Below, one piece after another: positions 6,914-63,253 of a DNA stretch of 64,000 nucleotides; positions within the stretch are counted from its first letter, which is position 1; the number at the start of each line of letters is the position of its first letter. Under the pieces are notes generated by a model, which saw only the letters and a list, made by a program, of their open reading frames with translations, was not told the DNA's origin and did not search any database. Position numbers and translations under genes: made by a program. The stretch is from Salinimicrobium catena (GTDB taxonomy: Bacteria; Bacteroidota; Bacteroidia; Flavobacteriales; Flavobacteriaceae): positions 523,097 through 587,096 of the forward strand of contig NZ_FNGG01000002.1 of the NCBI RefSeq assembly GCF_900102915.1, read 5' to 3'.

Positions 6914-7804
6914 ATGAAAGAAAGAATAATAGGAAATTATACCAGCAATATTGAAGGTCCGTTGCTGTTCGTTACGGGCGGAGTTCATGGAAATGAGCCC
7001 AGCGGAGTTAAGGCCCTGGAGAGGGTTTTTGAAGAGCTGAACAAGACAAAACCCCAAATTAAAGGCCGTATAGTGGGCGTGAAAGGAAATACTGCTGCCC
7101 TGAAAAAAGATCAACGGTTTATTGATGAAGACCTTAACCGTACCTGGACAGAGGAAAATGTACAAAAGGAAAATCCCGGTTCCCGGGAACAGCAGGAAAT
7201 GCACGAGATCATCAAGGCGCTGGAACATTATCCTGAAAAAGATTTCACCAAACGCTATTTTCTAGACTGTCATACCACATCATCGGCCAGTTTACCTTAC
7301 ATCTCTGTACAGGAAGTGAACGATAACGATGAATGGGCACACAAATTTCCCGGCTATAAGGTTCGTGGCTTTAGCGATATCGTCTACGGAGCCATTGATC
7401 ATTATATGAGTCGCACCGGCCTAACCGGATTTGTATTTGAAGCAGGACAGCATACCAGTGATGAATCTGTAGAGAACCATGAAGGAATGATATGGCTGGC
7501 TCTTGAAAAGGCCTGTGGCCTGGACCTCCAGGAATTATCTGGTCATCCGGAATGCGTTGAAAGATTCACCGTTAAAAATGCTCCAGATGATAAAACCTTT
7601 GAAATCGTGTACAGACATGAGATCAAGGATGGAGATGATTTTAAGATGGAACCGGGGTATAAAAACTTCCAAAAAATAGAAAAAGGAGAGCTTTTGGCTA
7701 GCAGCAATGGGGAAGAAATAAAAAGCGAATGGGATGCTTATATTTTTATGCCCCTTTACCAGTCACAAGGAAACGACGGATTTTTTGTTATCAAAGCAGT
7801 TTAG
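6914..7804 (+). CDS. Succinylglutamate desuccinylase/aspartoacylase family protein
   Basis: A 296-residue M14-superfamily zinc deacylase. Zinc ligands are visible as GGVHGNEPSG (His25, Glu28) and LDCHTT (His120); DEDLNRTW (71-78) supplies the substrate-binding Asn-Arg pair, and Glu176 in FEAGQH is the probable general base. Relatives cleave N-acyl amino acids (AstE, AspA) or small amides. It is the last gene of the three-gene operon and is closed by a strong terminator. It could hydrolyse the product of the ATP-grasp enzyme or release its building block; that is inference from context only. Confidence 0.85.
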   Translation: MKERIIGNYTSNIEGPLLFVTGGVHGNEPSGVKALERVFEELNKTKPQIKGRIVGVKGNTAALKKDQRFIDEDLNRTWTEENVQKENPGSREQQEMHEIIKALEHYPEKDFTKRYFLDCHTTSSASLPYISVQEVNDNDEWAHKFPGYKVRGFSDIVYGAIDHYMSRTGLTGFVFEAGQHTSDESVENHEGMIWLALEKACGLDLQELSGHPECVERFTVKNAPDDKTFEIVYRHEIKDGDDFKMEPGYKNFQKIEKGELLASSNGEEIKSEWDAYIFMPLYQSQGNDGFFVIKAV

Positions 7805-7826
7805 ATTTCCTCTTGAAAACATGAAA

Positions 7827-7860
7827 AGGCCCGGAAAAATACATTTCTCCGGGCTTTTTT
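7827..7860. terminator. Terminator after the DUF1704 operon
   Basis: A stem GCCCGGA (7829-7835) / TCCGGGC (7848-7854) is followed by six T. It lies between the operon and the convergent small lipoprotein gene and is A-rich on the other side, so it can serve both. Confidence 0.85.
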
Positions 7861-7882
7861 ATTTAGTTAAAGTGCTTGACAA

Positions 7883-8200
7883 CTATCGTTTTACTATCCC
7901 CACCACTTCGCCAGATTCACAATTCACCCTCAAAAGCTCGCTGCTTCCTACTCCATACTTGCCCTTAGGTACCTCATAATCGGCCATAGGCCAGGAAGCT
8001 CTTAAAAAGCTGATCTTTGTCCCGTCTCTCGGGTCGATCAACGGACTTTTACAGACCTTTTCCCCTGGAACTGCAGCCGGGTTTTCAAAATAAGCCGGAA
8101 TATCTGTGGCATCTCTCATCACTTCCTGTGAGTTAAAGGAGTTACTGGTAGTTCCGCAGCCTACCAGCAGCACGAAGAGCACTAAAATAATTGATCTCAT
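7883..8200 (-). CDS. Small hypothetical lipoprotein
   Basis: 105 residues with a short hydrophobic leader and the lipobox LLVGC (Cys15), so it should be an inner- or outer-membrane lipoprotein. The mature part is about 90 residues, holds two further Cys (around residues 49 and 94) that could form a disulfide, and contains the segment PRDGTKISFLRAS. I do not recognise a family. It lies 30 bases downstream of the larger lipoprotein gene on the same strand, so the two may be co-transcribed. Confidence 0.65.
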   Translation of the reverse strand: MRSIILVLFVLLVGCGTTSNSFNSQEVMRDATDIPAYFENPAAVPGEKVCKSPLIDPRDGTKISFLRASWPMADYEVPKGKYGVGSSELLRVNCESGEVVGIVKR

Positions 8201-8230
8201 AAGGTTGGTGGTTAGTTACATGATTTTCTT

Positions 8231-9748
8231 TTAATCAAAATTTACGAATAAATTTCCTTTGAATCTTACATAGTAAGGTGCAGATATTTCCTCAGGCATT
8301 TGAAATTTAAAAACACTATAAGCTCCACTAACTCCTTCACCAGGAACAATTTGAACAGGGTGTATTTTTTTACAAAAACTTTCAGAATCTAAATCATCTC
8401 TTATCTCAAGTACATGATCTTCGAGATATCTTCCTGCATCAATAAATACTTCCACCGTCAGCTCATTTGGCCCGGTCGTTTTTGCGTAAATACTTCCAAC
8501 AGTCAACTCCTTATGCAAAAACTCGACACTTCCAATAAAGTAGCTTGTGCTCTCAAACTGGATAAAATCATCTGTACCATTCATCGCTACTGCCAAATGA
8601 TCCTCCTCGTCTGTCTTTATTTTGCAGGGATCTGTACAAACATCCCCGAAGTAATCCACACCTCCTTGTGAAGGATTATACTGGTAAGGACAATTATCTT
8701 CAATATTCACGATCCCGTCCCCATCTGTATCAAGGTTTGGATCTACGCCATTGCCGTTTTCTTCAAATAATTGGGGAGAGTCTTCCATTCCGCAATTTCC
8801 TTCCCTAAAATGGTAATAATTGAGGGTATTACCTTCTGTAAAAAGATCCTTAACATCTTCATCTGTAAAAACTCCTTTTCTAATTACGGCCTCTTCGCTT
8901 TCGTAATCAAAAACCAGCAGTTTCAATTCAAGATAATATTCATCTGTTCCTTCCCTGTCCGGCAATACAAAGCATAACGGTTCCGCAGAGGTTTCAGATT
9001 CATCTTCAAAATCGGTAATTATTATACTGTTTTCTACATCTGTATAAAAGTTCGCTCCTTTAGGATCATCGGGATTGCCGCTATAGTCCCAAATGCTTAC
9101 ACTATACCTTGCCGCTTCGGCATGTCTACCGTTCTCCAGGCAATAATTTCCGAAAATGCAGAACTCTATAGCCTCTGTACCTTCTAGTTGAAAGAAACTA
9201 TATCCATATTGATTAACAAAACGATCATCAAAACTAAGAACATCTACTTCAACATATTTTTTCACCCCCGCACCAAGATTAATGGTCAATGGTAAGGGAG
9301 TGTCTACAAATTTGCCAAAACCCGTGGAATTGTTATCTAAAGGAGCTGTCCAGATCATATTTCCCTCCCCGTCAAAAACCTGAAAATAATCCAGCGTATA
9401 GGTGCCTGGTTCTAATTCAAGTTCAGATGATTCTTCAGTGAATATTTCACCAGCTCCATTTATATTATTTTGTAAAAGTGCTATTTGATAGGGGGAATCA
9501 ATGGTACCAACCACCGGGAGGCCATCCCTTGAGAGAACGAGTTCTGCAAAAGCAGCATCTGCATCACTGCAGGAAGGTATATTAGAAGTAGCTTGTTTAT
9601 CTTCGGAAGTGTTTAAAACAAAATCCTCTAAGAATATTCCGAAGGAAAGGGAAGAACGGCTATTTCCTTTGATCGAACTATCATCAGAACTACAGCCGGC
9701 AAGAAGGAACAACAAAATAAAGACCGGGATAATGCTACACTTTTTCAT
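8231..9748 (-). CDS. Lipoprotein with thrombospondin type 3 repeat
   Basis: 505 residues with a lipobox LLAGC (Cys19) and a Ser/Asp-rich linker. At roughly residues 340-375 is a calcium-binding thrombospondin type 3 segment: DTDGDGIVNIEDNCPYQYNP, then a second Cys-containing part ending FGDVC. The rest is beta-rich with many acidic residues and several Cys, typical of surface-exposed Bacteroidota lipoproteins. No enzyme motif is seen. It probably has an adhesive or structural role at the outer membrane, with calcium rigidifying the TSP3 segment. It is the upstream member of a two-lipoprotein unit. Confidence 0.75.
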   Translation of the reverse strand: MKKCSIIPVFILLFLLAGCSSDDSSIKGNSRSSLSFGIFLEDFVLNTSEDKQATSNIPSCSDADAAFAELVLSRDGLPVVGTIDSPYQIALLQNNINGAGEIFTEESSELELEPGTYTLDYFQVFDGEGNMIWTAPLDNNSTGFGKFVDTPLPLTINLGAGVKKYVEVDVLSFDDRFVNQYGYSFFQLEGTEAIEFCIFGNYCLENGRHAEAARYSVSIWDYSGNPDDPKGANFYTDVENSIIITDFEDESETSAEPLCFVLPDREGTDEYYLELKLLVFDYESEEAVIRKGVFTDEDVKDLFTEGNTLNYYHFREGNCGMEDSPQLFEENGNGVDPNLDTDGDGIVNIEDNCPYQYNPSQGGVDYFGDVCTDPCKIKTDEEDHLAVAMNGTDDFIQFESTSYFIGSVEFLHKELTVGSIYAKTTGPNELTVEVFIDAGRYLEDHVLEIRDDLDSESFCKKIHPVQIVPGEGVSGAYSVFKFQMPEEISAPYYVRFKGNLFVNFD

Positions 9749-9896
9749 AACAGATCAGTTGTATGGTTTAAAAATACAGGAGGCAGCTAATGATAGCCTT
9801 TCGGGGGGAAAGTTTGGTTAGTGTAGGATCTCCTAATATAAAAATCGCTTAACTGAAGAACAATAAGTGAAAACCCTGCTTTTTTCTTCAGAAGCA

Positions 9897-10763
9897 TCAG
9901 GATATGGCTATGATGTATAACCCTATCATGATCACAATGATTCCAATTATCCTGTTCCTGATGTTCTTTCTTTCGTTCAGAAATAGAAAGGCATATAAAA
10001 TTATAAAAACAGCACTCGACCTTTTGATAGAAATGACATAAGGAACCAGGATCAACTGAATGGCAAACATCTGGGCCAATACACTGGTGGTCTTGAAGAA
10101 TCCCACCATCAGTAACGGCCATTTTCGATTCCTTATTTGCAAACCTGGATTATTTGATTTCCTCCATAGGATAGGGATAAGATAAAACAGGATCACAAAA
10201 TCCTTGGAAAAAGCCCAGAATACCGGCGAAGTCTCCTCTACCCCAATTTTGTCAATGTTAGCCGTGATACTCCAGATAAATGCCACCAGCAACATATAGC
10301 GGGAACCCTGATTCTTCACCAGGGAAACAAAGGGCGCAAAGATCTTTTTTGGGTCTTCGCTCATGTTGGAAATATAGGTACCTATGACGATCGTGAGAAT
10401 ACCCAGTAAACCTAGAAAACTGGGGAATTCGCCTATCATGATCGGCGAGGTGATGAGCATGAACAGCGGAGTAAGGGTGATCAGCGGTAGCGTGACCGAG
10501 ATCTCAGAGCGTTTTATGGCTTTGAAGTACAGCAGGATCACACCCAGTTGTAACAGCGAACTGGCCAGAAGAGCCCAAAGGAACCGGGGGCTCATGGCTT
10601 CCAGTCCCACATACCATACCACCGGGATCAACAGCAGACTTTGCACCAGGTGCATGGAAAATGCAGCCGTATACTCATCTATATGATGAAGATTATGCTT
10701 ACTGGTAACATCTTTGAGGGCCTCTGAAATTGCCGTGCCAAAAGCCAGTAGAAATCCGAGCAT
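9897..10763 (-). CDS. EamA-family (DMT) transporter
   Basis: 288 residues with about ten hydrophobic segments in two five-helix halves, the hallmark of the drug/metabolite transporter superfamily (EamA, PF00892). The conserved GGSVLAQ-like region of the second half appears as TTSVLAQMFAIQL, and the C-terminus ends in a helix with almost no tail. These proteins export or import small metabolites. It is the last gene of a seven-gene operon that otherwise encodes sugar-active enzymes, starting 11 bases after the preceding gene, so it may move the operon's product or substrate across the inner membrane; this is inferred. Confidence 0.82.
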   Translation of the reverse strand: MLGFLLAFGTAISEALKDVTSKHNLHHIDEYTAAFSMHLVQSLLLIPVVWYVGLEAMSPRFLWALLASSLLQLGVILLYFKAIKRSEISVTLPLITLTPLFMLITSPIMIGEFPSFLGLLGILTIVIGTYISNMSEDPKKIFAPFVSLVKNQGSRYMLLVAFIWSITANIDKIGVEETSPVFWAFSKDFVILFYLIPILWRKSNNPGLQIRNRKWPLLMVGFFKTTSVLAQMFAIQLILVPYVISIKRSSAVFIILYAFLFLNERKNIRNRIIGIIVIMIGLYIIAIS

Positions 10764-10774
10764 CTCATCATTTT

Positions 10775-11152
10775 TTAAGGTTCAGCCGGGAAGGCCATCG
10801 AGCCCATATGGGCAGTTTCTTTGGAACCGGAGTCCAGTCTGCTGAATTGCACCACAACAGGCACATTGCTTCTAATGTAGCAGGAATAATTTCTTTCCAG
10901 ACGCATAGCCACAGGATCTATAAGATCATTGAACCGCACTTTTCGAAGCCTTTTCGGTTTGACTTCAATTTCATAAACTTCGGAAGGCTGCTCTTCTTCA
11001 TAAAAAATGAACAATTCTATTTCTGCTGCCTCTTCAGAAGTATTTAAAATGGCAATTTTATCGTGGCTTACAAAATCAGGTTCCTTTCCCGTGCTTCGGA
11101 AGGGGATCCGGCCGGCCGAAAAAGCCCAGTCCAGTTTACCGTAGGTTTTCAT
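10775..11152 (-). CDS. ASRT-family (PF07100) small protein, copy 1
   Basis: 125 residues starting MKTYGKLDW; the ATG at 11152 overlaps the TGA of the lactone oxidase (ATGA), and its paralogue starts the same way, which decides the start. The family is named after the Anabaena sensory rhodopsin transducer, a small tetrameric beta-sandwich protein; members without rhodopsin have been proposed to bind sugars or other small molecules. Shared blocks with copy 2 are ILNTS, FNDL-DP, VPVVVQ and RLDS. No rhodopsin gene is in the window. A ligand-binding or sugar-handling role inside this operon is inferred. Confidence 0.8.
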   Translation of the reverse strand: MKTYGKLDWAFSAGRIPFRSTGKEPDFVSHDKIAILNTSEEAAEIELFIFYEEEQPSEVYEIEVKPKRLRKVRFNDLIDPVAMRLERNYSCYIRSNVPVVVQFSRLDSGSKETAHMGSMAFPAEP

Positions 11153-12342
11153 AGCGTTATGTTTAGCAGTTCCTTTAAATATGGCGTCAGGAAAACTCCT
11201 TCGGGATCTAATTTTTGACGGATCTGCTGAAAATTTTCCCACTTGGGATACAGCTCCTGAAGTTCCTTCCCTTTCATGTAATGCTTTTTGCCCCAATGTG
11301 GCCGGCCGCCATACATTTTAAAAATAGGTTCTATGGCCTTGAAATAATCTTCAAACGGCAATCCCGCATTGTGATGCAGCGAAATGGTCACAGATTCGCG
11401 GTCATACATGGGGCTAATGAAAGCATCGTCTGCTTTTATGGTTCTGTAGAGCACTCTCCAGGCCACTTCCTTTCGCCATTTTTTCCGTACCTGTTCTCTT
11501 ACTTCCATAAAACATTCGGGGCCGTTCTCTTTAGGCAGGGCATATTCCATTTCGTCAAATTTGAGATGACGGGAACGTGGAAGGATCTCATGGCTATGCC
11601 CCTGCTGCTCCATTTCCAGGCTTCCGTAGGGGACCTCAGGCATTTTATGATCTTCTTCATTCATGACCCTGATCTTACAGAGATCTGTGCGCGGATACCA
11701 GTAAAAATCGAAATTGCGGTTATTATTCTGAAGCTCCTCCAGGTTCTCCAGACATTTCTCCAGTGGAATACACCACTCCTTTCTATGCAGATTATAGACT
11801 GGCTGCAGCTGAAGGCGCATCTTTAGAAACACGCCGCAGCTACCCAACGCCACCTGCAGGGCTTTTATCATTTGAGGATCTTTCATTTGAGAAACCTCTA
11901 TGATTTCCCCTTTTCCTGTGACCATTCTGGCGCCGATGAGCATGGAGGAAAGATTTTGTAAATTTTTCCCGGTACCATGAGTACCTGTGCCAATTGCGCC
12001 TGCCAGCGTCTGTATATCCACATCACCGGTGTTGTGCATGGCAAGACCATATCTAAAAAGGTCTTTGCCGGCTTCTTTTACGGTCATACCTGCAGGCACC
12101 GTAGCCTGTGCCGTTTCCCGATCTGGTGACTCTACACCGCGAAAATGCTTTAAAGACAACAGGAAATCTTCGGTCTTTACCAGGGGCGATGAGGAATGTC
12201 CTGCACCCACTACCCTTACTTTTTTCCCCTGCCTGGATGCTTTCCGAATTATATCACAAACCTCTTCTTCAGACTCGGGTTCAAAGACCTTTCCGGGCTG
12301 AAAAGCCATACTTCCACTCCAGTTTTTCCAGGTCGCCTCCAT
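11149..12342 (-). CDS. FAD-linked sugar-1,4-lactone oxidase (ALO/GLO family)
   Basis: 397 residues of the vanillyl-alcohol-oxidase superfamily. The FAD-binding PCMH domain spans about residues 10-190, with VRVVGAGHSSSP (His49 is at the position used for covalent FAD in many relatives) and the signature GAIGTGTHGTG. The C-terminal half is the D-arabinono-1,4-lactone oxidase domain ending in HWGKKHY and DPEGVFLTPYL. Such enzymes oxidise aldonolactones or alditols. It is flanked on both sides by ASRT-family genes, 3 bases from the upstream one and overlapping the downstream one, so the three are surely co-translated. Substrate is not predictable, though a sugar lactone or polyol fits the GH13 neighbours. 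Confidence 0.85.
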   Translation of the reverse strand: MEATWKNWSGSMAFQPGKVFEPESEEEVCDIIRKASRQGKKVRVVGAGHSSSPLVKTEDFLLSLKHFRGVESPDRETAQATVPAGMTVKEAGKDLFRYGLAMHNTGDVDIQTLAGAIGTGTHGTGKNLQNLSSMLIGARMVTGKGEIIEVSQMKDPQMIKALQVALGSCGVFLKMRLQLQPVYNLHRKEWCIPLEKCLENLEELQNNNRNFDFYWYPRTDLCKIRVMNEEDHKMPEVPYGSLEMEQQGHSHEILPRSRHLKFDEMEYALPKENGPECFMEVREQVRKKWRKEVAWRVLYRTIKADDAFISPMYDRESVTISLHHNAGLPFEDYFKAIEPIFKMYGGRPHWGKKHYMKGKELQELYPKWENFQQIRQKLDPEGVFLTPYLKELLNITL

Positions 12343-12345
12343 AGA

Positions 12346-12717
12346 CTATTCAGAATAAGCTATAGTGCTCAACAAGGCATTTTCAGCCTGCCTTGAGTCT
12401 AGCCTGGTGTGCTGTACCACCACAGGAATGTTAGACTCGATCACACAGGCATAATCTGTACCCCTTGGAATAGGCTCCGGATCCTGCAAATCATTAAACC
12501 TGAGATGTTTGGTTCGCTGTGCCTCAACAGTAACTTTGTACGGCCCCACGGGATCTTTATCTGAATAAAAAATTGTGATCTCGATATCCGCTTTTTGATT
12601 TGAGGTATTAAGGATGCAAGCAGTTTCGTGGCTCGTGAACTCAGGTTCTGGGCCCGTTCCATATTCAGGGATATAACCTTCGGCAATGATCCAGGCTTTT
12701 TTTCCAAATGTTTTCAT
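12346..12717 (-). CDS. ASRT-family (PF07100) small protein, copy 2
   Basis: 123 residues from the ATG at 12717 (a TTG at 12735 in frame is possible but the MKTFGKK start matches copy 1). It aligns with copy 1 along the whole length: TSHETACILNTS, LRFNDLQDP, SNIPVVVQHTRLDS. The N-terminus MKTFGKKAWIIAEGYIP is close to the classical ASRT consensus, so this copy is the less diverged one. It lies 22 bases after the GH13 gene and 3 bases before the lactone oxidase gene. It was probably duplicated within this operon. Confidence 0.82.
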   Translation of the reverse strand: MKTFGKKAWIIAEGYIPEYGTGPEPEFTSHETACILNTSNQKADIEITIFYSDKDPVGPYKVTVEAQRTKHLRFNDLQDPEPIPRGTDYACVIESNIPVVVQHTRLDSRQAENALLSTIAYSE

Positions 12718-12739
12718 AGTTGTTGTTTTTTTCAAGTAT

Positions 12740-14335
12740 TTAATCCAGTTCTATCACCAGGCCCAGGTTACCCTTAACCTGCAATTCTCCTCCCAGCTCC
12801 TCTCCTTCCATTTCAGGCTGGGTGGCGATTCTCACTTTTCCTCTCCAGTTAAAATCAGGTTTGAAATTTTCTTCGGAATCACTAAGGTTCAGGACCATTA
12901 AATATTTCCTATCCTTGTACTTTCTCATGTAAGAAAGCAGGTTGTTTTCAGTGTAGACCGGAATATGATCCCCTATATGTAATGCCGGTTCGCCGTTCCG
13001 AAGGTTTATGAGCCTGCGCTGAAAATGCAGCATACTTCCTTTTTTCTCCCACTGTTCTGTCACGTTAAGCTCTTGGTAGTTCTCCATTAATGGCAGCCAG
13101 GGTTCTCCGGTGGTAAATCCGGCGTTCCTGGTATCATCCCACTGCATGGGGGTGCGTTCGGGATCACGGCTTTTACCTACTCCGGGTTCGTTCAGAGCCT
13201 GTGGATCCTTAATTTTATTCTCGGGAATGTTCACGTCTTCCATGCCCAGTTCATCTCCGTAGTAAATAGTAGGAGTTCCCCGAAGGGTTAGCAACAACAT
13301 GGCGGCGATCCTTGCCTGTTCCTTACCCACCCTGGTGGCGACCCGGGATTTGTCGTGGTTGCCCAAAACCCAGTTAGGCCAGCCTTCATCTGGCAAAGCG
13401 CCTTCGTAATCATTAATGGCCGCTTCGATCTTTTTTGCTTCCCAGGGTAATTCCAGCAACTGAAAATTAAATGGCAAATGCGCACCCTGATTGTCTTCTC
13501 CGTAATACCTTACCAGTTTGCTGATGGGTAAATAGATCTCCCCGATCAACAAGCGGTCATCGAACTCATCAACCACTTTTCTCATTTTCCGGACTATATC
13601 ATGCACTTCATCCTGATCTGTGGAATATGCCGGAATATGACGGCTGTATGAGTTCATTTTCTCATTATAATCGGGGTTAGGCGGATTATCACGTAGCTTT
13701 TCATCTTTGATCATATGCCACATCACATCTACTCTAAAACCATCCACTCCTTTCTTCAGCCAAAAGCGCATTGCATCAAAAATGGCTTTTTGAACTTCAG
13801 GATTACGCCAGTTCAGGTCGGGTTGCTCTTTGAGAAAGGCATGATAATAATACTGTCCTGTTTGTTCATCGTATTCCCACGCACTGCCACCAAATACGCT
13901 AAGCCAGTTATTGGGAGGACCACCGTCTGGAGCAGGATCTTTCCAAATATACCAGTCTCTCTTCGGATCATCTTTCGACCTCCTGGATTCCCTGAACCAT
14001 TGATGTTCATTGGAGGAGTGATTAGGAACCAGGTCCAGGATGAGTTTCATATTCCTGTTATGGATCTCCTTTGTCAAAAGGTCAAAATCCTGCATGGTAC
14101 CGAACATGGAATGTATTCCGGTGTAATCGCTTACATCATACCCAAAATCGGCCATGGGAGACGGAAAAATGGGAGAGATCCACACACCCTTAATTCCCAG
14201 ATCCTTTAAATAATCCAGTTTACTGATGATCCCGTTTAGATCCCCAATCCCATCCCCGTCACTGTCCATAAAAGAACGGGGATAGACCTGGTAAATAATA
14301 TCTTTTTGCCACCACAAATATTCCTTTTCTTTCAT
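12740..14335 (-). CDS. GH13 alpha-glucosidase
   Basis: 531 residues of the oligo-1,6-glucosidase/alpha-glucosidase branch of GH13. The four conserved regions are present: DLVPNHSS (region I), GFRVDVMWH with the nucleophile Asp (II), LIGEIYLP with the acid/base Glu (III) and VLGNHDKSR with the transition-state Asp (IV). The calcium-like loop DSDGDGIGD near residue 25 and a C-terminal beta domain complete the usual architecture. There is no signal peptide, so it is a cytosolic enzyme hydrolysing short alpha-glucosides such as maltose, isomaltose or sucrose-like disaccharides. Its ATG overlaps the upstream TGA-type junction by four bases. Confidence 0.9.
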   Translation of the reverse strand: MKEKEYLWWQKDIIYQVYPRSFMDSDGDGIGDLNGIISKLDYLKDLGIKGVWISPIFPSPMADFGYDVSDYTGIHSMFGTMQDFDLLTKEIHNRNMKLILDLVPNHSSNEHQWFRESRRSKDDPKRDWYIWKDPAPDGGPPNNWLSVFGGSAWEYDEQTGQYYYHAFLKEQPDLNWRNPEVQKAIFDAMRFWLKKGVDGFRVDVMWHMIKDEKLRDNPPNPDYNEKMNSYSRHIPAYSTDQDEVHDIVRKMRKVVDEFDDRLLIGEIYLPISKLVRYYGEDNQGAHLPFNFQLLELPWEAKKIEAAINDYEGALPDEGWPNWVLGNHDKSRVATRVGKEQARIAAMLLLTLRGTPTIYYGDELGMEDVNIPENKIKDPQALNEPGVGKSRDPERTPMQWDDTRNAGFTTGEPWLPLMENYQELNVTEQWEKKGSMLHFQRRLINLRNGEPALHIGDHIPVYTENNLLSYMRKYKDRKYLMVLNLSDSEENFKPDFNWRGKVRIATQPEMEGEELGGELQVKGNLGLVIELD

Positions 14336-15975
14336 AAGTACATTTTTCTTTTGTGCAACCAGCGGTAGCCGTATGGGGTAAGGGTAATTTCTCCTTTTTC
14401 AGGATCGAAAGGATCATACCTCATGTTTCCGAAGATATCTATGATATTCTTGAGATCCTTCTCTCCTTCCAGCTGAAATTCTACGGTCATTTCCTTGTCT
14501 GAAAAATTGTGAAAGGCTATTCCTATTCCTTTATCAGACTTGGTAAAGTAGCCCAGAACTTTAGGATTAGCGGTATCAATAATTCGACACCTGCCCCACC
14601 CAAACTCCGGAAATTCCTTCCGGTAATCAATAGCCTTTGAGATCCAGTTGAGAAAAGAATCGGGATCCCTGTGCTGGTCGCTTACATTTACTTTTTCATA
14701 CCCAAATTCTCCACCTGAGATCACATTCCTAATAAGCTTCGCTTTAGGAGCATTTGAAAATCCGCCGTTCTTTTCACTTGACCACTGCATAACAGTTCTA
14801 ACACTGGAGCGGCCTTCCATGGAAAGGTCCTCACCCATACCTATTTCCTCACCGTATCTCAATACGGGAGTACCCGGGAGGGTAAAAAGAAGGCTGTGCG
14901 CGAGCTCCATTTTTTTGCGATCATTTCCCAGTATGGAAGCCAGTCTTCTCCTGATTCCCCTTCCAAAAATTCGCATGTTTTCCTTGGGAGCGAAGGCTTT
15001 AAAAACCTCTTCCCTTTCATTCTTCTTTAGTTTGTCTAAATTTAATTCATCGTGATTTCTAAGGAAAATGGCCAGCTGTTCTTTTTCAGTAATGCTTTCG
15101 GGCATTCTCTCCATAGCTTTGGCCAAAGGAGTGGCTTCTTCACGGGCAAATGCCAGATAGATAAAATTATTAACGTAAAAATTGAAGAGCATGTGCATCT
15201 GGTCTTCATTTCCTAGAAATTTATTATAGTCATTCGGGTCAAGGTCTACCTCTGCCAGAAGAATGGCATCGGGTTTTTGAGTTTCCACGAATTCTCTGAA
15301 ATTTCTAAAGATCTCGTGCGGATCACCATCAAAATCCATTCGTCCTTTTTCCTTGAACATGTGCGGGGCCGCATCTATTCGAAAACCTGATACACCCAGC
15401 TTTAACCAGAAATGCATGATCCTGAAGATCTCCTTTTGCACATCGGGATTGGATAGATTTAGATCTGGCTGATGCGGGTAAAAGGAGTGGTAATAATAGG
15501 CTTTAGCCTTACGGTCATACTTCCAGCTGGACCCGCTTTCCCCGTCACCGGCCATCATATTGGGCTCCGGATCTTCGGGCTTTTCGTCTACCCATATATA
15601 GTAATCCCGGTATCTGGATTTTTTGTCCTTTCGGGCCTCCTGGAACCAGAAGTGTTCGATAGAAGTATGGTTCACAGAAAGGTCGATGATCACTCGCATC
15701 CCTTCTTCCTCGGCAGCATCCAAAAGCTGTGCAAAATGTCCCAGATCACCCAGCCGCGGATCGATCTTATAGTAATCCCGAACATCATATCCATTGTCCC
15801 GGTTGGGGGTGTCAAAAATAGGCAATAACCAGAGGCAGGTCACTCCAAGGCTGGAAAGATAGGAAAGACCGTTCCTGAGCCCTTCAAAATCTCCCGTACC
15901 ATCATCATTGGAGTCTTTAAAAGTCTCCACATCGAGGGAATAAAAGATCGCATTTTTGTACCAGAACTTGTTCAT
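14332..15975 (-). CDS. GH13 trehalose synthase-like enzyme
   Basis: 547 residues of GH13. Regions: DLSVNHTS (I), GFRIDAAPHMF (II, nucleophile Asp), LLAEVDLDP (III, acid/base Glu) and IFLRNHDELNLDKL (IV). The LRNHDEL signature and the long insertion around the active site are as in trehalose synthase (TreS, maltose to trehalose isomerase) and its close relatives; the maltokinase domain fused in some TreS proteins is absent. It is cytosolic, without a signal peptide. Its gene begins 6 bases after the LLM gene and is coupled by a 4-base overlap to the GH13 alpha-glucosidase. TreS activity is likely but a glucosyltransferase or sucrose-type specificity cannot be excluded. Confidence 0.75.
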   Translation of the reverse strand: MNKFWYKNAIFYSLDVETFKDSNDDGTGDFEGLRNGLSYLSSLGVTCLWLLPIFDTPNRDNGYDVRDYYKIDPRLGDLGHFAQLLDAAEEEGMRVIIDLSVNHTSIEHFWFQEARKDKKSRYRDYYIWVDEKPEDPEPNMMAGDGESGSSWKYDRKAKAYYYHSFYPHQPDLNLSNPDVQKEIFRIMHFWLKLGVSGFRIDAAPHMFKEKGRMDFDGDPHEIFRNFREFVETQKPDAILLAEVDLDPNDYNKFLGNEDQMHMLFNFYVNNFIYLAFAREEATPLAKAMERMPESITEKEQLAIFLRNHDELNLDKLKKNEREEVFKAFAPKENMRIFGRGIRRRLASILGNDRKKMELAHSLLFTLPGTPVLRYGEEIGMGEDLSMEGRSSVRTVMQWSSEKNGGFSNAPKAKLIRNVISGGEFGYEKVNVSDQHRDPDSFLNWISKAIDYRKEFPEFGWGRCRIIDTANPKVLGYFTKSDKGIGIAFHNFSDKEMTVEFQLEGEKDLKNIIDIFGNMRYDPFDPEKGEITLTPYGYRWLHKRKMYL

Positions 15976-15981
15976 AGGAGA

Positions 15982-16941
15982 TCAATTATTTAAAGAAGGT
16001 AAAACCTCTTTTCCGAAGAACCTTATGTAATCCTCCTGCCCGTTATTGACATTATGAATGATGATCTTTTCAAACCCCAGATCTTTATAAGCTTTTATTT
16101 TTTCAATAAAATAAGAAGCCTCATTGCTGATCAACACGTGCTTTTCAAGATCCTCTGGCCTTACCTTTTCTCCCAGGGCATCGAACTGTTCAGGATTATT
16201 GATCTCAGAAATTAATTTACTGGGAAAGATGTTGTTCTTCCACTGTTCCCAGGCCCCTTGCAATGCCTCTTCTTTAGAGGCGGCATAAGAGATCTGCACT
16301 TTTAGGGCCATTGGTTTATCGTCTCCCTTTCCCCCTCTAAAAGCCCGTACCATTTTTTCAAGATCTTCCAGGGGTTTTGAGATGGTGATGAGTCCGTCTG
16401 CCCAGGAGGAAAGCCATCGGGCAGTCTTTTCTGTAATGGCCGCTCCATATACGGTGGGCACGGTTTTAGGCGGAGTGAATAATTTGGCTTTTTCCACTTT
16501 TATGATCCCGTGATGGGTAGTGTACTCTCCCGTCCATAACTGCCGCATAACGTCCACCGATTCTTTAAGACGGGCATTACGAATATCTTTTGAAGGCCAT
16601 TTCTCGCCGGTTATATTCTCATTAAGTGCCTGCCCGCTACCCGAGCAGAGAAAGAACCTTCCAGGAAACATTTCATCCAGGGTAGCCACTGCCTGCGCTA
16701 TTATCGCAGGATGATACCTCTGCCCTGGGGCGTTCACAATACCGAATTCCAGGGAAGTAGCATGCATGGCAGCGCCAAGCCAACTCCAGGCAAAGCCGCT
16801 TTCTCCCTGTAGATTGCTCCAGGGATGAAAATGATCTGAAGAAAGTACTGCTTCAAAGCCGGCCTGTTCGGCTTGCTGCACCAGGTTTAAAAGCTGACTT
16901 GGCGGAAATTGTTCGTGTGATGCGTGAAATCCTATTTTCAT
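15982..16941 (-). CDS. LLM-class flavin-dependent oxidoreductase (TIGR03885-like)
   Basis: 319 residues with the luciferase-like monooxygenase TIM barrel: an SSDHFHPW segment near residue 35, GSGQALNE near 105 and the ADGLIT strand near 190. It resembles the F420-dependent glucose-6-phosphate dehydrogenase-like subfamily, but Flavobacteriia generally lack F420 and the TIGR03885 group is thought to use FMN. It is the first gene of a seven-gene operon; the next starts 6 bases later. Oxidation of a sugar or lactone that feeds the other enzymes is plausible, but no substrate evidence is present. Confidence 0.82.
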   Translation of the reverse strand: MKIGFHASHEQFPPSQLLNLVQQAEQAGFEAVLSSDHFHPWSNLQGESGFAWSWLGAAMHATSLEFGIVNAPGQRYHPAIIAQAVATLDEMFPGRFFLCSGSGQALNENITGEKWPSKDIRNARLKESVDVMRQLWTGEYTTHHGIIKVEKAKLFTPPKTVPTVYGAAITEKTARWLSSWADGLITISKPLEDLEKMVRAFRGGKGDDKPMALKVQISYAASKEEALQGAWEQWKNNIFPSKLISEINNPEQFDALGEKVRPEDLEKHVLISNEASYFIEKIKAYKDLGFEKIIIHNVNNGQEDYIRFFGKEVLPSLNN

Positions 16942-17074
16942 TAAAATGAAATGTTTAGTTGGTCATTTTAGGAGCTATTCTTCTAAATTATAAAGGATTA
17001 AAGGATTGGAATGGATTTGTCATATTAAAAAAAAGATAAAATCTTGATACTCAATTCAACTGCAGTAAGAAATC

Positions 17075-17118
17075 ATGATACAGATCATATAATGGTCGTA
17101 GCCAGTATTTTAACTTTG
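17075..17118 (+). promoter_or_regulatory. Hemerythrin promoter with FNR/CRP-like box
   Basis: A perfect inverted repeat ATGAT-ACAG-ATCAT (17075-17088), which contains TGAT-N4-ATCA as in FNR-type sites, lies upstream of a perfect TAnnTTTG element, TAACTTTG (17111-17118). With a transcript start near 17123 the repeat is centred close to -41.5, the classical position for activation by a CRP/FNR-family protein. Confidence 0.6.
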
Positions 17119-17140
17119 AAGCATATCAATACGAGCAAAA

Positions 17141-17617
17141 ATGAATCATCCTTTAAAAAGACACGAAGCATTAAAACCATTGAGCAAAGACCATCACCAC
17201 GGCTTGTTGCTCTGTTGGAAAATAAGAGAAGGAAAGAAAAAGGACATCGCGCCGGAAAGGATCAAAGCCTACACCGATTTCTTTTTTAATTCACAATTGA
17301 AGCCTCACTTCAGGTTCGAAGAAAATGAGATCTTCAGCTTACTTGGAAAAGATCATCCTATGGTGAAAAAAGCAGAGACAGATCACCATCGGTTAAAACA
17401 GCTTTTCACAGAAGAACACAATCTTGAAAAATCGCTTTCAGATATTGAAAAAGAACTGGAAGAACATATCAGGTTTGAAGAAAGGGTTCTTTTCAGCGAG
17501 ATACAGCAGGAAGTTTCCGAAGAAAAACTCGAAGATCTTAAGAACAAGGAGGAAGAGATCAAAACTCCAGATCCTGACTCCTGGAATGACAAATTCTGGG
17601 CGAGGGAACGATCATAA
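17141..17617 (+). CDS. Hemerythrin HHE domain protein
   Basis: 158 residues, mostly one four-helix hemerythrin-like bundle. Candidate di-iron ligands are His18-20 (KDHHHG), His56 and Glu60 (PHFRFEENE), His82/83 (DHHRL), His109 and Glu113 (HIRFEERVLF). Bacterial proteins of this kind sense or bind O2 or NO, or repair iron-sulfur clusters. It is cytosolic, with a short acidic C-terminal tail. The FNR-like box upstream and the nos cluster elsewhere in the window suggest low-oxygen or nitrosative-stress expression. The last 6 bases overlap the convergent corA gene. Confidence 0.85.
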   Translation: MNHPLKRHEALKPLSKDHHHGLLLCWKIREGKKKDIAPERIKAYTDFFFNSQLKPHFRFEENEIFSLLGKDHPMVKKAETDHHRLKQLFTEEHNLEKSLSDIEKELEEHIRFEERVLFSEIQQEVSEEKLEDLKNKEEEIKTPDPDSWNDKFWARERS

Positions 17618-18694
17618 CCAGCGTTTTCTTTTAAAGTAGAGCATCATACCTATGAAAAGCACCAGCATGACCAGCCACACGGCAGGATAGCCGTATTTCC
17701 ATTCCAGCTCGGGCATGTTTTCAAAGTTCATCCCATACACGCCGGCCAAAAAGGTAAGAGGAATGAAAATAGAAGCCATGATGGTAAGCACCTTCATCAC
17801 CTCGTTCATCTTGTGACTAATGGTGGTCATATACATGTCCATAAGGCCCCAGGTCATTTCCCGATAGATCTCGATATTTTCGGAAACCTGTATCATATGG
17901 TCGTAGAGATCCCTGATGTAATTAATGGTATTTTCATGGATCAGTCCCTGATTGCCTTTTTCAAGTCGGCTTACCACCTCCCGAAGCGGAAAAACTGCCC
18001 TACGGATCCGTAACATGGTCCTTTTTAGTTCCTGAATTTCTAGGGTGGTATCTTTATGCGGTTCGGCGGTGATGAGCATTTCTTCCAGGGCCTCTATCCT
18101 GTCACTTATTTCATCTACCACGATGAAGTAATGATCTACAATGGCATCAAGAAGCGCAAATACAAGATAATCTGCTCCCCTGCTTCGAATTCTTCCTTTT
18201 CCTTTGGCCAGCCTCTCCCTGACTCCGTCAAAAACATCTCCCCCGGCTTCCTGGAAAGTGAGGACGTAATTCTTTCCAAGTACCATACTGATATGTTCAT
18301 TTTCCAGGTGCCCATCAGCTCTCCTGTACAACATTTTAGCCACTATGTAATAATAATCCTTATGCTCGTCTATTTTTGGCCGCTGGTTCGTATTCACAAT
18401 GTCCTCAATGATCAGCGGGTGAAGCTCATAATACTTCCCTACTTTTTCGATTTCGGTTGTATTGCTTAACCCGTCCAGGTTGAACCAGGTAACCCTGTCC
18501 TCTTCTTCGAATTTAAAAGCGTCTTCGGGAGTTGTAGAAATATACCTCTCGTAAAAATCAGCGTTGTAATCAATGACTTCCAGGGTGGTTTCGGCCTTTT
18601 CCTTACGGCCCACATAGGTCACCGTTCCGGGTGCCTGGTTAAGAGAAGTAGTGGATTTTGGCCTTTTTAAAAAATACCTTCTGTGCTTTGCCAT
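17612..18694 (-). CDS. corA: Magnesium/cobalt transport protein CorA
   Basis: 360 residues of the 2-TM-GxN family. The large N-terminal cytoplasmic funnel domain is followed by two C-terminal transmembrane helices; the selectivity motif YGMN (Gly321-Met322-Asn323) lies in the loop between them, and the protein ends in a basic tail KRKRWL. It forms a pentameric Mg2+ channel in the inner membrane. The gene stands alone, convergent with hemerythrin and divergent from recQ. Confidence 0.93.
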   Translation of the reverse strand: MAKHRRYFLKRPKSTTSLNQAPGTVTYVGRKEKAETTLEVIDYNADFYERYISTTPEDAFKFEEEDRVTWFNLDGLSNTTEIEKVGKYYELHPLIIEDIVNTNQRPKIDEHKDYYYIVAKMLYRRADGHLENEHISMVLGKNYVLTFQEAGGDVFDGVRERLAKGKGRIRSRGADYLVFALLDAIVDHYFIVVDEISDRIEALEEMLITAEPHKDTTLEIQELKRTMLRIRRAVFPLREVVSRLEKGNQGLIHENTINYIRDLYDHMIQVSENIEIYREMTWGLMDMYMTTISHKMNEVMKVLTIMASIFIPLTFLAGVYGMNFENMPELEWKYGYPAVWLVMLVLFIGMMLYFKRKRWL

Positions 18695-54528: not shown

Positions 54529-54564
54529 AAAGGGGATGGTCTATTTATCATCCCCTTTTTCTTT
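54529..54564 (+). terminator. Terminator of the copper-protein gene
   Basis: Stem AAAGGGGATG / CATCCCCTTT, loop of ten, followed by T. It overlaps the 3' end of the convergent malQ gene. Confidence 0.8.
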
Positions 54565-56076
54565 TTCCTCCTCTTCCTGAACTACCCTTCCATAAAGCTC
54601 ATTCAACTTAAATACTTCTTCGATCTCGGAATCCTTTGGAAGTTCCTCTTCTTTGACCCGCCAGGTCCAGTTGCCTTCCGTGCTGCCGGGAATGTTCATA
54701 AGAGCCTCCTCTCCCAGCCCAATTATATCCTGAAAAGGCGCTATCGCCAGATCGCAAACCGATTGCAGTGCAAGCCTATAGAGAACCTTATGGGCATTTT
54801 TGGGCGTAACTTTCATACCTGTATATTCCTTTAAATGCTCTTTCTCCTCCTTACCGGCATTTGAAAACCAGCCAATGGAAGTATTATTGTCATGAGTACC
54901 GGTGTACACTACATCGTTCGGGAGGTGGTTGAACGGCAGGTAAGGATTCTCCCGGTAATGGTCTCCAAAAGCGAATTGCAGCACTTTCATTCTGGGAAAA
55001 TTGAATTTTTCCAGAAGATCATACACCGGCTGGTCCAGGGATCCCAGGTCTTCAGCTATAAAAGGCATTTCGGGAAATTCTTTTTTCAGGGAATTGAAGA
55101 AATCAACCCCCGGCGTTTTCACCCATTTTCCGCGGATAGCTGTTTTTTCTGAAGCCTCTACTTCCCAGTAAGCTGAAAAGGCCCTAAAATGATCTAAACG
55201 CACCACATCGAACAAGAGCAGATTCTGCCTCAACCGGGAGATCCACCATTCGTAATCATTCTTCTTCATCTCCTTCCAGTCATAGACCGGCGTGCCCCAC
55301 AACTGCCCGGTCTTGCTGAAAAGATCAGGTGGCACTCCGGAAACGTGGGTGGGCTTTTTTTCTTCATCCAGCTTGAACAACGAAGGATTCACCCAGCAAT
55401 CTACACTATCGTGATTGATGTAAAATGGAACATCCCCAAAGAATTTCACTCCCCGGTGATGGGCTTCAGCCATTAACCGGGACCATTGAGAAAAGAAAAG
55501 GAACTGAATGAACTTTTCCTTTTCCACAGGCTCCTGCAGTTCTTTTTCGGCAGTCGTAAGGGCTTCCTCTTCGCGGTCCCTTAGCTCTGCCGGCCAGTCG
55601 ATCCAGTTGATATTCCCGAACTTTTCCCGCAGGGCAAGATAAATGCAGTAGTCATCAAGCCAGTGGGCATGTTCCTTTTTAAAGTTTTCAAAATCAGGTT
55701 CTGAAGACTTCTTTTTTTTATGTTGCTTCCAAGCCAGACTCAGCACTTCTTCTTTATATTCTTCTGCAGGACCAAAAATGACTTTGTCTTCCCTAATCCC
55801 TTTTGGCAACGGTACCTCCTTGAGGTCCACATAGCCATCTTTTTCTAGTAACTCCGGACTTATCAGTAAAGGATTGCCCGCAAAGGCGGAATGTGTGCTG
55901 TAAGGTGAATGTTTGTAGATCTTGTCTGTAGGATTGAGCGGCAACAATTGCCAGTAAGAATGCCCGGTTCGCTTTAAAAAGTCAAGGAAATCATAGGCGT
56001 TTTGCCCAAGATCGCCCATTCCGTAAGGTCCCCACAAGGAGGTTATATGCATAAGAATTCCACTGCTCCTTTCCAT
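54541..56076 (-). CDS. malQ: 4-alpha-glucanotransferase
   Basis: 511 residues of GH77. Motifs: WQLLPLNPTD near the N-terminus, VRLDHFRAF with the nucleophile Asp, FIAEDLG with the acid/base Glu and YTGTHDNNT with the third catalytic Asp. It transfers glucan segments between maltodextrins. It is the last gene of the minus-strand operon treZ-GH57-treY-malQ, 6 bases after treY. The basic-acidic C-terminus (EEEEKEKGDDK) extends past the domain. Confidence 0.95.
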   Translation of the reverse strand: MERSSGILMHITSLWGPYGMGDLGQNAYDFLDFLKRTGHSYWQLLPLNPTDKIYKHSPYSTHSAFAGNPLLISPELLEKDGYVDLKEVPLPKGIREDKVIFGPAEEYKEEVLSLAWKQHKKKKSSEPDFENFKKEHAHWLDDYCIYLALREKFGNINWIDWPAELRDREEEALTTAEKELQEPVEKEKFIQFLFFSQWSRLMAEAHHRGVKFFGDVPFYINHDSVDCWVNPSLFKLDEEKKPTHVSGVPPDLFSKTGQLWGTPVYDWKEMKKNDYEWWISRLRQNLLLFDVVRLDHFRAFSAYWEVEASEKTAIRGKWVKTPGVDFFNSLKKEFPEMPFIAEDLGSLDQPVYDLLEKFNFPRMKVLQFAFGDHYRENPYLPFNHLPNDVVYTGTHDNNTSIGWFSNAGKEEKEHLKEYTGMKVTPKNAHKVLYRLALQSVCDLAIAPFQDIIGLGEEALMNIPGSTEGNWTWRVKEEELPKDSEIEEVFKLNELYGRVVQEEEEKEKGDDK

Positions 56077-56082
56077 TATTGA

Positions 56083-61145: not shown

Positions 61146-61241
61146 GTTCTCAAAATTAGATTTCGCAGCTAACCCTTTGCTGCTCAGGTTGAAAAGTCTT
61201 TAGAATATAGGACTTAATCCTGCACTCCGCAAAGACTTTAA

Positions 61242-63053
61242 TTATATTTTAATGATCATGAACGATTTTGGAGGAACTTCAGTTTCTTTGATCCTTTCCT
61301 TCGGAAATTCTTCTTCTCCCAGCCATTTTTTATCGGCCGAGGCTATAAGGATCTCGCCTTTTTTCTCTGCGGAAAAAGTCACTCTAAAAGGCATTTTTCC
61401 GAAGTTATATATTCCCATAAGGTTCGTCTCCTTATCGGAAGCGATCACCTGCAGTACCTTATTTTCTTCGTCAAATTTTGTCTGAGTATCTTCAGCCCCA
61501 AAAAGGTGGAATGCGCCTTCTTTTTTCATTTTCAGCAGAAGCTTATACATTTCAAAAAGGGTGTTTTTTGACTGATCTTCTTTAAAGTTCCAGTTTGGGC
61601 GGGACTCCTCAAAGGTTTTTTTGGACTGCGGATCAGGAAATTCCTCTGCCTTCTGATCAAAGTACTCAAATTCCCTTTTTCTCCCCTCCTGCACCGCTTT
61701 TACCAGTTCCGGATCACCGTGGCTAATGAAATATCTAAAGGGATTCGTCTCTCCAAACTCCTCTCCCATGAACAACAATGGCACAAAGGGAGAAGTGAGC
61801 AAAGTACCGGCAGCCAGTTTCTGTTCTTCGAAAGTGATCAACTGGCCAAGCCGTTCTCCCAGCACCCGGTTTCCCACCTGGTCATGGTTCTGAATACAGG
61901 CGACGAATTTATTTTTTGCTATTCCCTTCGGGCTGTTCCCCACTCTTCTTTTCCTGAATTTAGAATATATGCCGTCGTAAATGAAACCCTGCTCAAAGGT
62001 CTTTGCCAGGTACTCCGCTTTTCCGTAATCCTGATAATAGCCGGCATCTTCCCCTGTAAGCAGCGTATGCACTGCATGATGAAAGTCGTCGATCCACTGG
62101 CCCTCAAGACCGTAACCGCCCTTTGAATAATCAGTCACAAGACGGTTATCGTTCAGATCGCTTTCGGCGATAAGTACATAATGTTTTCCCGTCTTCTTTT
62201 CCAGTGCATCCACTTCTTCGCTCAATTCTTTTAAAAAGTGCCTGGCCCCGCGATCTATTATCTCATGCACGGCATCAAGACGCAGGCCATCAAAATGAAA
62301 TTCTTCAAGCCACATGATCGCATTCTGGATAAAGAAATTCCTCACGTGATCGCTGTATTTGTCATCGAGATTAATGGCACTGCCCCAGGGAGTATGATAC
62401 TTATCGGTAAAATAAGGTCCGAACTGCGAGAGGTAATTCCCCTCCGGCCCCATGTGGTTATAAACCACATCAAGCAGGATTGAAAAACCCATTTGATGAC
62501 AGACCTCAATCAGCTTCTTTAGACCGGTAGCCCCGCCATAGCTATCCTGCGCGGCATAAGGATAGACCCCGTCATAACCCCAGTTTCGATCTCCCGGAAA
62601 TTGTGCAATAGGCATTATTTCCAGAGTATTAACCCCCAGCTCCTCAAGATGTGGTAGCTTCTCAATAATGCCTTCAAATGTTCCTTCAGAAGTAAATGTT
62701 CCTACGTGCAGCTCATATATGACCATGTCCTCCAGGTTTCGGCTTTCATGGCCTTGGTCCTGCCAATCGTGGGAATAATGATTTATTACCTGTGACCAGG
62801 AATGAACGCCTTCAGGCTGAGAGCGCGAGGCAGGATCTGGAAATTCATCCTCTTCATCAAGACGTATCTTATATAAAGAACCCGGTGGTACTTCAGGCAC
62901 TTCTGCCTCCCAGTAGCCTTGGGTATCTTTGATTAAGGAAACAGGTTCATTTCTATCTTTTAAAACCACCTCTACCTTTTCGGCTAAAGGTGACCAAACC
63001 GTGAACTGGCAGGTATCGTTCTTCAAATATTCAGCCCCTACTTTTCTTCCCAT
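61242..63053 (-). CDS. treZ: Malto-oligosyltrehalose trehalohydrolase
   Basis: 603 residues from the ATG at 63053 (MGRKVGAEY); a TTG 13 codons upstream is in frame but adds no family sequence. An N-terminal carbohydrate-binding module 48 (residues 1-90) precedes GH13_10: DVVYNHMGPEGNY (I), GLRLDAVHEIID (II), LIAESDLNDNR (III) and CIQNHDQVGNR (IV). It hydrolyses the bond next to the terminal trehalose unit. It is the first gene of the four-gene operon and is divergent from glgE. Confidence 0.95.
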   Translation of the reverse strand: MGRKVGAEYLKNDTCQFTVWSPLAEKVEVVLKDRNEPVSLIKDTQGYWEAEVPEVPPGSLYKIRLDEEDEFPDPASRSQPEGVHSWSQVINHYSHDWQDQGHESRNLEDMVIYELHVGTFTSEGTFEGIIEKLPHLEELGVNTLEIMPIAQFPGDRNWGYDGVYPYAAQDSYGGATGLKKLIEVCHQMGFSILLDVVYNHMGPEGNYLSQFGPYFTDKYHTPWGSAINLDDKYSDHVRNFFIQNAIMWLEEFHFDGLRLDAVHEIIDRGARHFLKELSEEVDALEKKTGKHYVLIAESDLNDNRLVTDYSKGGYGLEGQWIDDFHHAVHTLLTGEDAGYYQDYGKAEYLAKTFEQGFIYDGIYSKFRKRRVGNSPKGIAKNKFVACIQNHDQVGNRVLGERLGQLITFEEQKLAAGTLLTSPFVPLLFMGEEFGETNPFRYFISHGDPELVKAVQEGRKREFEYFDQKAEEFPDPQSKKTFEESRPNWNFKEDQSKNTLFEMYKLLLKMKKEGAFHLFGAEDTQTKFDEENKVLQVIASDKETNLMGIYNFGKMPFRVTFSAEKKGEILIASADKKWLGEEEFPKERIKETEVPPKSFMIIKI

Positions 63054-63253
63054 ATTTCCTATGCCTTTTTCCTTCAAAATCAACACTTTCAAAGCTAAGA
63101 AGGATAAGACGGAAGATTGAATGTTTAATAGTTTTTTAACTAAGCTTGTCCCTCTACTTGTCTAAATTTAAGTGATTTAGATTACCATAACACCTGTAGT
63201 TACCAACCAGCGCAGGTAATAATCAACATAGATTTTTTAAAAAACAAAGATGT
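63054..63253. promoter_or_regulatory. Divergent treZ-glgE intergenic region
   Basis: 200 bases must contain both promoters. An imperfect inverted pair CCTG ... CAGG (about 63191-63214) and a TTTTTTAAAAAA palindrome (63233-63244) before glgE are seen. No clear TAnnTTTG was assigned, so this is a location only. Confidence 0.35.

Follow-up and report, generated by a model that had tools for sequence, protein, structure and literature searches.

What do seven closely packed genes of Salinimicrobium catena do, and do they work together at all? They lie on the minus strand of the 64,000-nucleotide stretch analysed here (the window), where open reading frames and sequence place them from 16941 down to 9897, in the transcription order LLM, GH13a, GH13b, ASRT1, ALO, ASRT2 and EamA: an LLM class oxidoreductase, two GH13 enzymes, two ASRT proteins, a putative alditol/lactone-type oxidase and a membrane transporter (Table 1). 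Read from the sequence, the successive junctions measure 6, -4, 22, 3, -4 and 11 bases. The two negative values (GH13a/GH13b and ALO/ASRT2, with the ATG of ASRT2 at 11152) are ATGA overlaps of four bases, and the spacing of 22 holds for an ASRT1 start at the ATG at 12717, an in-frame TTG being present at 12735. The tight run described in the original prediction, with junctions of 22 bases or less and two ATGA overlaps, is confirmed by the sequence and by the Pfam and NCBIfam families. The genes form a conserved functional unit, a conclusion that is far surer than any statement of what they make. As to the latter, the reading we favour, with some reserve, is a modular and stress-associated route in which an unphosphorylated alpha-glucoside would be oxidised by flavin-based enzymes and ASRT would serve as a sugar-binding partner.

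The operon consists of a core (LLM and GH13a, joined by ASRT1 and, in this genus, by GH13b) and an all-or-none module, ALO-ASRT2-EamA. Among 12 genomes of the genus, ASRT was found in ten, and the two lacking it are only 74–75% complete; the comparison covered the genome of the window and the nine others that carry ASRT. All seven genes occur in the same order in six of the ten (the window genome, G001, G002, G003, G010 and G011), and protein identity among genomes with the order kept ranges from 66 to 88%. The other four (G004, G005, G007 and G009) have LLM-GH13a-GH13b-ASRT1 only, with ALO, ASRT2 and EamA absent from the stretch and a single ASRT in each whole genome. Because four of the ten lack all three genes and six have all three, ALO-ASRT2-EamA behaves as a module. 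The same cut appears in a different arrangement in Algoriphagus, where ALO-ASRT-EamA and LLM-GH13a occupy opposite strands. The proposal that the seven genes act together is favoured by their conserved neighbours, and has to be recast as a core plus a separable module; a single inseparable pathway of seven genes was rejected, since the module is missing from four congeners.

Conservation of gene order outside the strain, on which the original prediction had staked itself, was found: the order is kept in congeners and parts of it recur across phyla. Neighbours were counted within 4 kb of LLM at the 80 best LLM loci in the genome collection, where 567 candidates encode a relative; several contigs stop close to LLM, so that all counts are lower bounds. 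GH13a was found at 27 of these loci, ASRT at 16 and ALO at 8 (23, 12 and 5 of 76 without the four Salinimicrobium loci). LLM is next to GH13a in at least five phyla, with pairs at loci of Bacteroidota, Cyanobacteriota, Pseudomonadota and Myxococcota. Alternative alpha-glucan neighbours occur at loci without GH13a: a GH15 enzyme with a trehalase-like N-terminal domain (6/80) and a GDE-type debranching enzyme adjoining LLM (8/80). On a Spirosoma plasmid treY directly precedes LLM. Eight of 103 plasmid records with an LLM match were examined, and GH13a adjoins LLM in three (Sinorhizobium meliloti, A. vitis, and Streptomyces, where GH13b-LLM-GH13a are consecutive) and ASRT in one (S. meliloti); plasmids of Paracoccus, Skermanella and Thermomicrobium have neither beside LLM, the Thermomicrobium enzyme being of the F420 type. 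The S. meliloti order is pyruvate oxidase-ASRT-ALO-ASRT-GH13a-LLM, and its GH13a would be the gene called treS, smb20099, in the parts of PMC4960864 covered here, as judged from the position on pSymB. The triplet ASRT1-ALO-ASRT2 is present in Sinorhizobium, Lysobacter, Vulcaniibacterium and the haloarchaeon Natrononativus, that is, in alpha- and gammaproteobacteria and a haloarchaeon. It adjoins LLM in Lysobacter and Vulcaniibacterium; in Natrononativus no LLM occurs within the 19 kb read, and Natrialba has ALO-ASRT.

LLM matches Bac_luciferase and TIGR03885 (flavin mononucleotide (FMN)-dependent LLM class oxidoreductase; 485.4 bits, cut-off 398.7). Its AlphaFold model (pLDDT 94.0) matches the Fgd of Thermomicrobium roseum with a template modelling (TM) score of 0.94, at 41–42% identity, and one matched structure entry of LLM relatives holds glucose (background in the parts covered of PMC12750041). 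A literature search on 9HAV returned only unrelated papers. Removal of one F420-type row and five doubled genomes from the family alignment of 102 rows left 96, in all of which H40 and W44 are kept; the position of E109 is Q in 73, window LLM included, while K259 is present in none and R283 in one, the window LLM having I and H there. Numbering and the roles of H40, W44, E109, K198, K259 and R283 follow FGD, the F420-dependent glucose-6-phosphate dehydrogenase, with the letters verified against the 3b4y chain. The T. roseum enzyme, with which LLM shares its fold, has K259 and R283 and lacks K198. The loss of the phosphate-site residues favours a non-phosphorylated substrate, and we infer that LLM acts on an unphosphorylated sugar with FMN or another flavin as cofactor. 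No match to CofE (TIGR01916), for F420, was found in the genome of the window, with a control that was positive in three archaea only. A glucose-6-phosphate dehydrogenase was rejected for LLM on score (159.2 bits, cut-off 420) and on residues, with the caution that the T. roseum enzyme is also without K198.

ALO matches PF04030 and PF01565, and TIGR01679 with 371.2 bits (cut-off 292.25). The structures nearest to its model (pLDDT 84.2) are an alditol oxidase with D-xylulose (8ot8) and an ancestral L-galactono-1,4-lactone dehydrogenase (8qnb). It shares the fold and the histidine of the flavin adenine dinucleotide (FAD) site with these and with the alditol oxidase 2vfr, at 20–25% structural-alignment identity, and differs from all three in having Leu for the Glu of E-x-R. 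E-x-R is the substrate motif of alditol/lactone oxidases, which use its Glu. The FAD-site His and HW[GA]K are found throughout 16 aligned ALO rows, with one motif position varying (HWGK, HWAK). ALO is likely a variant alditol/lactone oxidase that retains oxidase chemistry.

The two ASRT proteins differ from each other in a consistent way. ASRT1 scores 191.5 bits and ASRT2 139 bits against PF07100 (cut-off 25), and 85 of 120 aligned residues (71%) of ASRT1 are identical to Anabaena ASRT (2ii7), compared with 47 of 120 in ASRT2. The ligand-cleft signature SHExxC reads SHETAC in ASRT1 and is lost in ASRT2 (SHDKIA); according to the parts of PMC2739507 covered here, its H and C line a predicted ligand cleft, and sugar binding was proposed via H25 and C29 of TM1070. 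A tree of 63 distinct ASRT rows groups all 15 copies located behind ALO in a single clade (99/98). When motifs are counted by position before or behind ALO, SHExxC is kept in 9/9 upstream and 1/15 downstream copies. RQxxN is kept in the window ASRT1, in 21/22 GH/LLM-linked, 8/9 ALO-upstream and 5/5 rhodopsin-linked rows, and in only 4/15 downstream copies; the window ASRT1 is labelled GH/LLM-linked in the tree although it is also next to ALO. By these sequence criteria the two paralogs represent a conserved division of labour. Among seven ASRT plasmid loci, a thiamine pyrophosphate (TPP) enzyme is annotated in four (Natrialba, about 7 kb away, Deinococcus, Nitrobacter and Croceicoccus) and a gluconate 2-dehydrogenase subunit in three; a TPP enzyme also heads the S. 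meliloti operon. At three of these plasmid loci ASRT is beside TPP enzymes, gluconate 2-dehydrogenase subunits and GMC or dehydratase-type genes, with GH15 in two. These TPP-enzyme and gluconate 2-dehydrogenase neighbours point to sugar acids or lactones as probable ASRT ligands. At another of the seven, on a Klebsiella pneumoniae plasmid, ASRT has a sugar porter, an SDR and a mandelate-racemase-type gene as neighbours, with insertion sequences on either side.

GH13a belongs to the Alpha-amylase family, resembles trehalose synthase (TreS) over its full length and has the three GH13 catalytic regions intact, and yet its 569.6 bits to TIGR02456 (treS) fall below the cut-off of 678.35. With GH13b as outgroup, 47 linked GH13a rows, which include at least two genomes twice, form one branch (97/98) apart from TreS; the tree holds three TreS and one outgroup row, and more TreS would strengthen the test. 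The genome of the window also encodes a separate TreS fusion of 1107 residues (916.3 bits to the same model), about 1.3 kb past the window end at 588375 of the contig. As judged from sequence, then, GH13a belongs to a clade that is sister to trehalose synthase. GH13a as TreS proper was rejected on the score, the separate clade and the second TreS. GH13b is also of the Alpha-amylase family, with no NCBIfam model over its cut-off among the matches listed, and is predicted to be an alpha-glucosidase-type enzyme from its nearest solved structures, 3wy1 and 7voh. Both GH13 proteins are also matched by the NCBIfam model NF051899 (GH13b at 504.5 bits), whose name, "beta-galactosidase BglA", looks odd for a GH13 family. 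A second alpha-glucan cluster occupies 54541-63092 of the window (GH77, a GH13 enzyme, GH57 with DUF3536 and a CBM48-GH13 enzyme), with the TreS fusion beyond it.

The hemerythrin-domain and CorA genes that flank the operon start stay next to it in the 10 congeneric genomes compared. In the gap between the operon and this pair, a search for the Bacteroidetes-type promoter TAnnTTTG gave a single match, directed to the hemerythrin gene, and none towards LLM. Across 9700-17300 neither promoter-like sites (15, against 13.4 in shuffles) nor terminator-like sites (7, against 8.0) are in excess.

Table 1. Genes of the operon and its upstream flank, in window coordinates
Feature	Position	Strand	Description
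LLM	15982..16941	-	FGD H40 and W44 kept, E109 replaced by Q, phosphate-site K259 and R283 lost
GH13a	14332..15975	-	GH13 enzyme standing alone, from the clade next to trehalose synthase; GH13 catalytic motifs retained
GH13b	12740..14335	-	predicted alpha-glucosidase-type GH13; nearest solved structures alpha-glucosidases 3wy1, 7voh
ASRT1	12346..12717	-	PF07100; SHExxC ligand signature and RQxxN kept
ALO	11149..12342	-	FAD alditol/lactone-oxidase type; GHS (FAD-linking His position) and HWGK kept; L-x-R replaces E-x-R
ASRT2	10775..11152	-	diverged PF07100 paralog; SHDKIA in place of SHExxC
EamA	9897..10763	-	EamA-type membrane transporter, PF00892
Gap	16942..17140		199 bases between LLM and the divergent hemerythrin-domain gene; presumed site of the operon promoter
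Hemerythrin-domain gene and CorA gene	17141-18694	divergent from operon	flank the operon start

In the proposed oxidative route, GH13a, here with GH13b, may release glucosyl units from an alpha-glucoside (trehalose or maltose, for example) or transfer them, as their family suggests. LLM would draw a hydride from C1 of a glucose-type ring to give a lactone, with a flavin as carrier, a step proposed from its nearest relatives and the kept H40 and W44. ALO could oxidise a downstream polyol, lactone or acid, probably with oxygen, to go by the observed fold and FAD-site His. EamA may move a product or substrate. ASRT1 might bind the sugar or the oxidised product as sensor or partner, and ASRT2, always the copy behind ALO, may be a diverged partner that perhaps joins ASRT1 in a mixed oligomer. 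The earlier idea of an oxidised glucose derivative gains from the nearest relatives of LLM (a sugar-lactone-forming dehydrogenase) and of ALO (alditol/lactone oxidases), and the overall pathway is partly supported.

Several observations weigh against this route. E-x-R reads L-x-R in all 13 distinct ASRT-linked ALO sequences (16 rows) and is kept in 3/3 controls, namely 8ot8 and the Paracoccus and Sinorhizobium paralogs (with no ASRT beside the paralogs in the stretches read); as ALO is without the motif Glu, its substrate may differ from those of alditol/lactone oxidases. In LLM, E109 is retained in 23 of the 96 family rows, and K198 is uninformative on its own, being missing from the T. roseum FGD too. 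Of the 80 best loci, 53 (some on short contigs) lack GH13a in the 4 kb around LLM. Outside the genus, GH13b is a neighbour on the Streptomyces plasmid only (0/76 of the best loci), and EamA is rare (1/76). A sample of 296 Bacteroidota genomes, the window genome counted, has LLM in four and ASRT in two, positives too few for statistics on whole-genome co-occurrence. The three other LLM genomes are without ASRT, with GH13a beside LLM in only one, and the sole other ASRT genome has neither LLM nor GH13a beside ASRT. In addition, Anabaena ASRT is reported to bind and loop DNA through contacts at R109, Q110 and N113 (parts covered of PMC8660804), which would suit a regulator better than an enzyme partner.

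That last observation lends itself to a different explanation, in which ASRT1 is a sugar-responsive, DNA-binding regulator of the operon, and the enzymes are an ordinary catabolic set. The retention of RQxxN in the window ASRT1 and in most rows other than ASRT2 agrees with this. The same C-terminal stretch may, however, serve assembly or ligand binding, and ASRT2 has mostly lost the motif despite its genetic tie to ALO; moreover, the sequence preference in Anabaena is weak, random sequence having been looped more than the pec fragment (same source, in the parts covered). A regulator is unlikely on this balance. Somewhat unlikely, too, is a role in the turnover of trehalose and glycogen at times of stress, with GH13a and GH13b tuning compatible-solute pools and LLM and ALO acting as housekeeping redox enzymes on a shared stress promoter. 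In Spirosoma the neighbours of LLM include TreY/TreZ-type genes, in Agrobacterium fabrum GlgX and TreZ lie nearby, and a Bradyrhizobium mutant in a treS that may or may not be of the GH13a clade has more trehalose (parts covered of PMC3518184). A sign of possible stress control, which counts for the proposed oxidative route as well, comes from S. meliloti, and not from the window organism: GGAAC-N16-GGTT occurs four times at its locus against 0.14 expected (0/100 shuffles reach four), 37 bases before the first ASRT and before PepSY, ferritin-like and small-protein genes, and twice in strain 1021 against 0.12 expected (2/100 shuffles reach two). It resembles the RpoE2 general-stress motif GGAACN16-17cgTT, with the caution that 469 genes of another rhizobium were preceded by a motif of this kind (PMC6011840, parts covered). 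Against such turnover, GH13a is accompanied in the genome of the window by a full TreS fusion, the 47 linked GH13a rows all group apart from the three TreS, and the ALO-ASRT2 and LLM-GH13a pairs persist across phyla, a linkage for which shared stress control alone has no need.

The patchy spread in Bacteroidota could also mean that the seven genes have nothing in common as to substrate and that chance or horizontal transfer keeps them side by side. We consider this very unlikely, given that the arrangement recurs independently in several phyla with differing orders and strands, and that three genes are cleanly lost or gained as a block.

The oxidative route may also bear on Anabaena sensory rhodopsin (ASR). 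In the ASRT tree, the five rhodopsin-linked rows, among them that of Anabaena, group with one further row in a clade (99/94) nested in a larger group of mostly GH13a/LLM-linked rows; the forks that place it have modest support (80/82, 83/83), and the root is only drawn. This nesting is a hint that the older role of ASRT was in sugar chemistry. Among 291 cyanobacterial genomes of one order (LLM at E up to 1e-90, ASR at E up to 1e-60), ASRT is present in 15, LLM in 42 and an ASR ortholog in 18. The 16 ASRT loci have as neighbours GH13a (9), LLM (8; either of the two in 10), ASR (3) or none of these (3). In six of the 18 ASR genomes LLM lies 813–1134 bases away on the same strand, and in three ASRT lies 51–262 bases away. 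LLM is present in 12/18 genomes with ASR against 30/273 without, where Fisher tests ignore genome relatedness and are indicative only. At four loci ASR orthologs adjoin LLM and a GDE-type debranching enzyme, and the rhodopsin at one of them matches the Anabaena protein (1xio) at 9.7e-110. In Scytonema a decayed cluster (6960-10163 of its locus) lines up ASR, ASRT, a lipoprotein gene, an Nramp-like gene interrupted by stops and a short remnant of LLM, and a second locus of that genome has ASRT-GH13a-LLM. At many of eight cyanobacterial loci a gene for a distant Nramp-like transporter (58.8 bits to PF01566) is also found near LLM or GH13a, often with a HAD-like gene.

No rhodopsin gene was found in or near the window operon, and a search of its whole genome gave no match, with a control that was also silent, so that absence is unproven; within the same limit, a rhodopsin-transducer role of ASRT in this organism is not supported. 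It is conceivable, if quite unlikely, that ASR and ASRT belong to the alpha-glucoside oxidation module by descent and neighbourhood, with LLM and ASRT shared. A rhodopsin would then have replaced the sugar enzymes in some cyanobacteria, where light would gate sugar C1 oxidation, and the window route with ALO would make an exported ascorbate-type stress protectant such as an erythorbate-like lactone.

The gene combination, for which the original prediction could name no pathway, had in part been described before. In 2009 De Souza, Iyer and Aravind (PMC2739507) listed ASRT-like genes with amylases (in Sinorhizobium), with pyruvate decarboxylase/oxidase and with a glycolate oxidase-related FAD oxidoreductase, so that ASRT (there ASRAH) with amylase and FAD oxidoreductase genes is shared with the present operon. 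Within the parts of that paper covered here, we did not find the LLM partner, the ASRT1-ALO-ASRT2 triplet, the missing H and C of the ASRT copy on the ALO side, a GH13a clade distinct from TreS or a link between LLM and rhodopsin. The covered text of a xenorhodopsin paper, PMC3198991 (exclusive of the neighbourhoods in its Figure 3), lacks the terms amylase and oxidoreductase and does not mention LLM. Searches found no papers on PF07100 or TIGR03885, no account of the operon in titles and abstracts pairing ASRT with trehalose synthase or the LLM class, and, in the sources covered, nothing about operon function for SMb20094-SMb20100 or SMb20099. In the literature covered, the LLM partner, the modular triplet with its ASRT paralog split and the tie to ASR are new.

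The role of ASRT outside Anabaena has been a question since 2009, and the operon described here, free of rhodopsin, pairs a close ASRT1 with defined candidate enzymes, so that ligand and partner become directly testable. The occurrence of ASR beside LLM (6/18) and ASRT (3/18), in a sample of one cyanobacterial order, offers a new candidate output for a rhodopsin of unsettled function. Lastly, a GH13 clade annotated as trehalose synthase is set apart from true TreS, as is an ALO subfamily with a changed active site.

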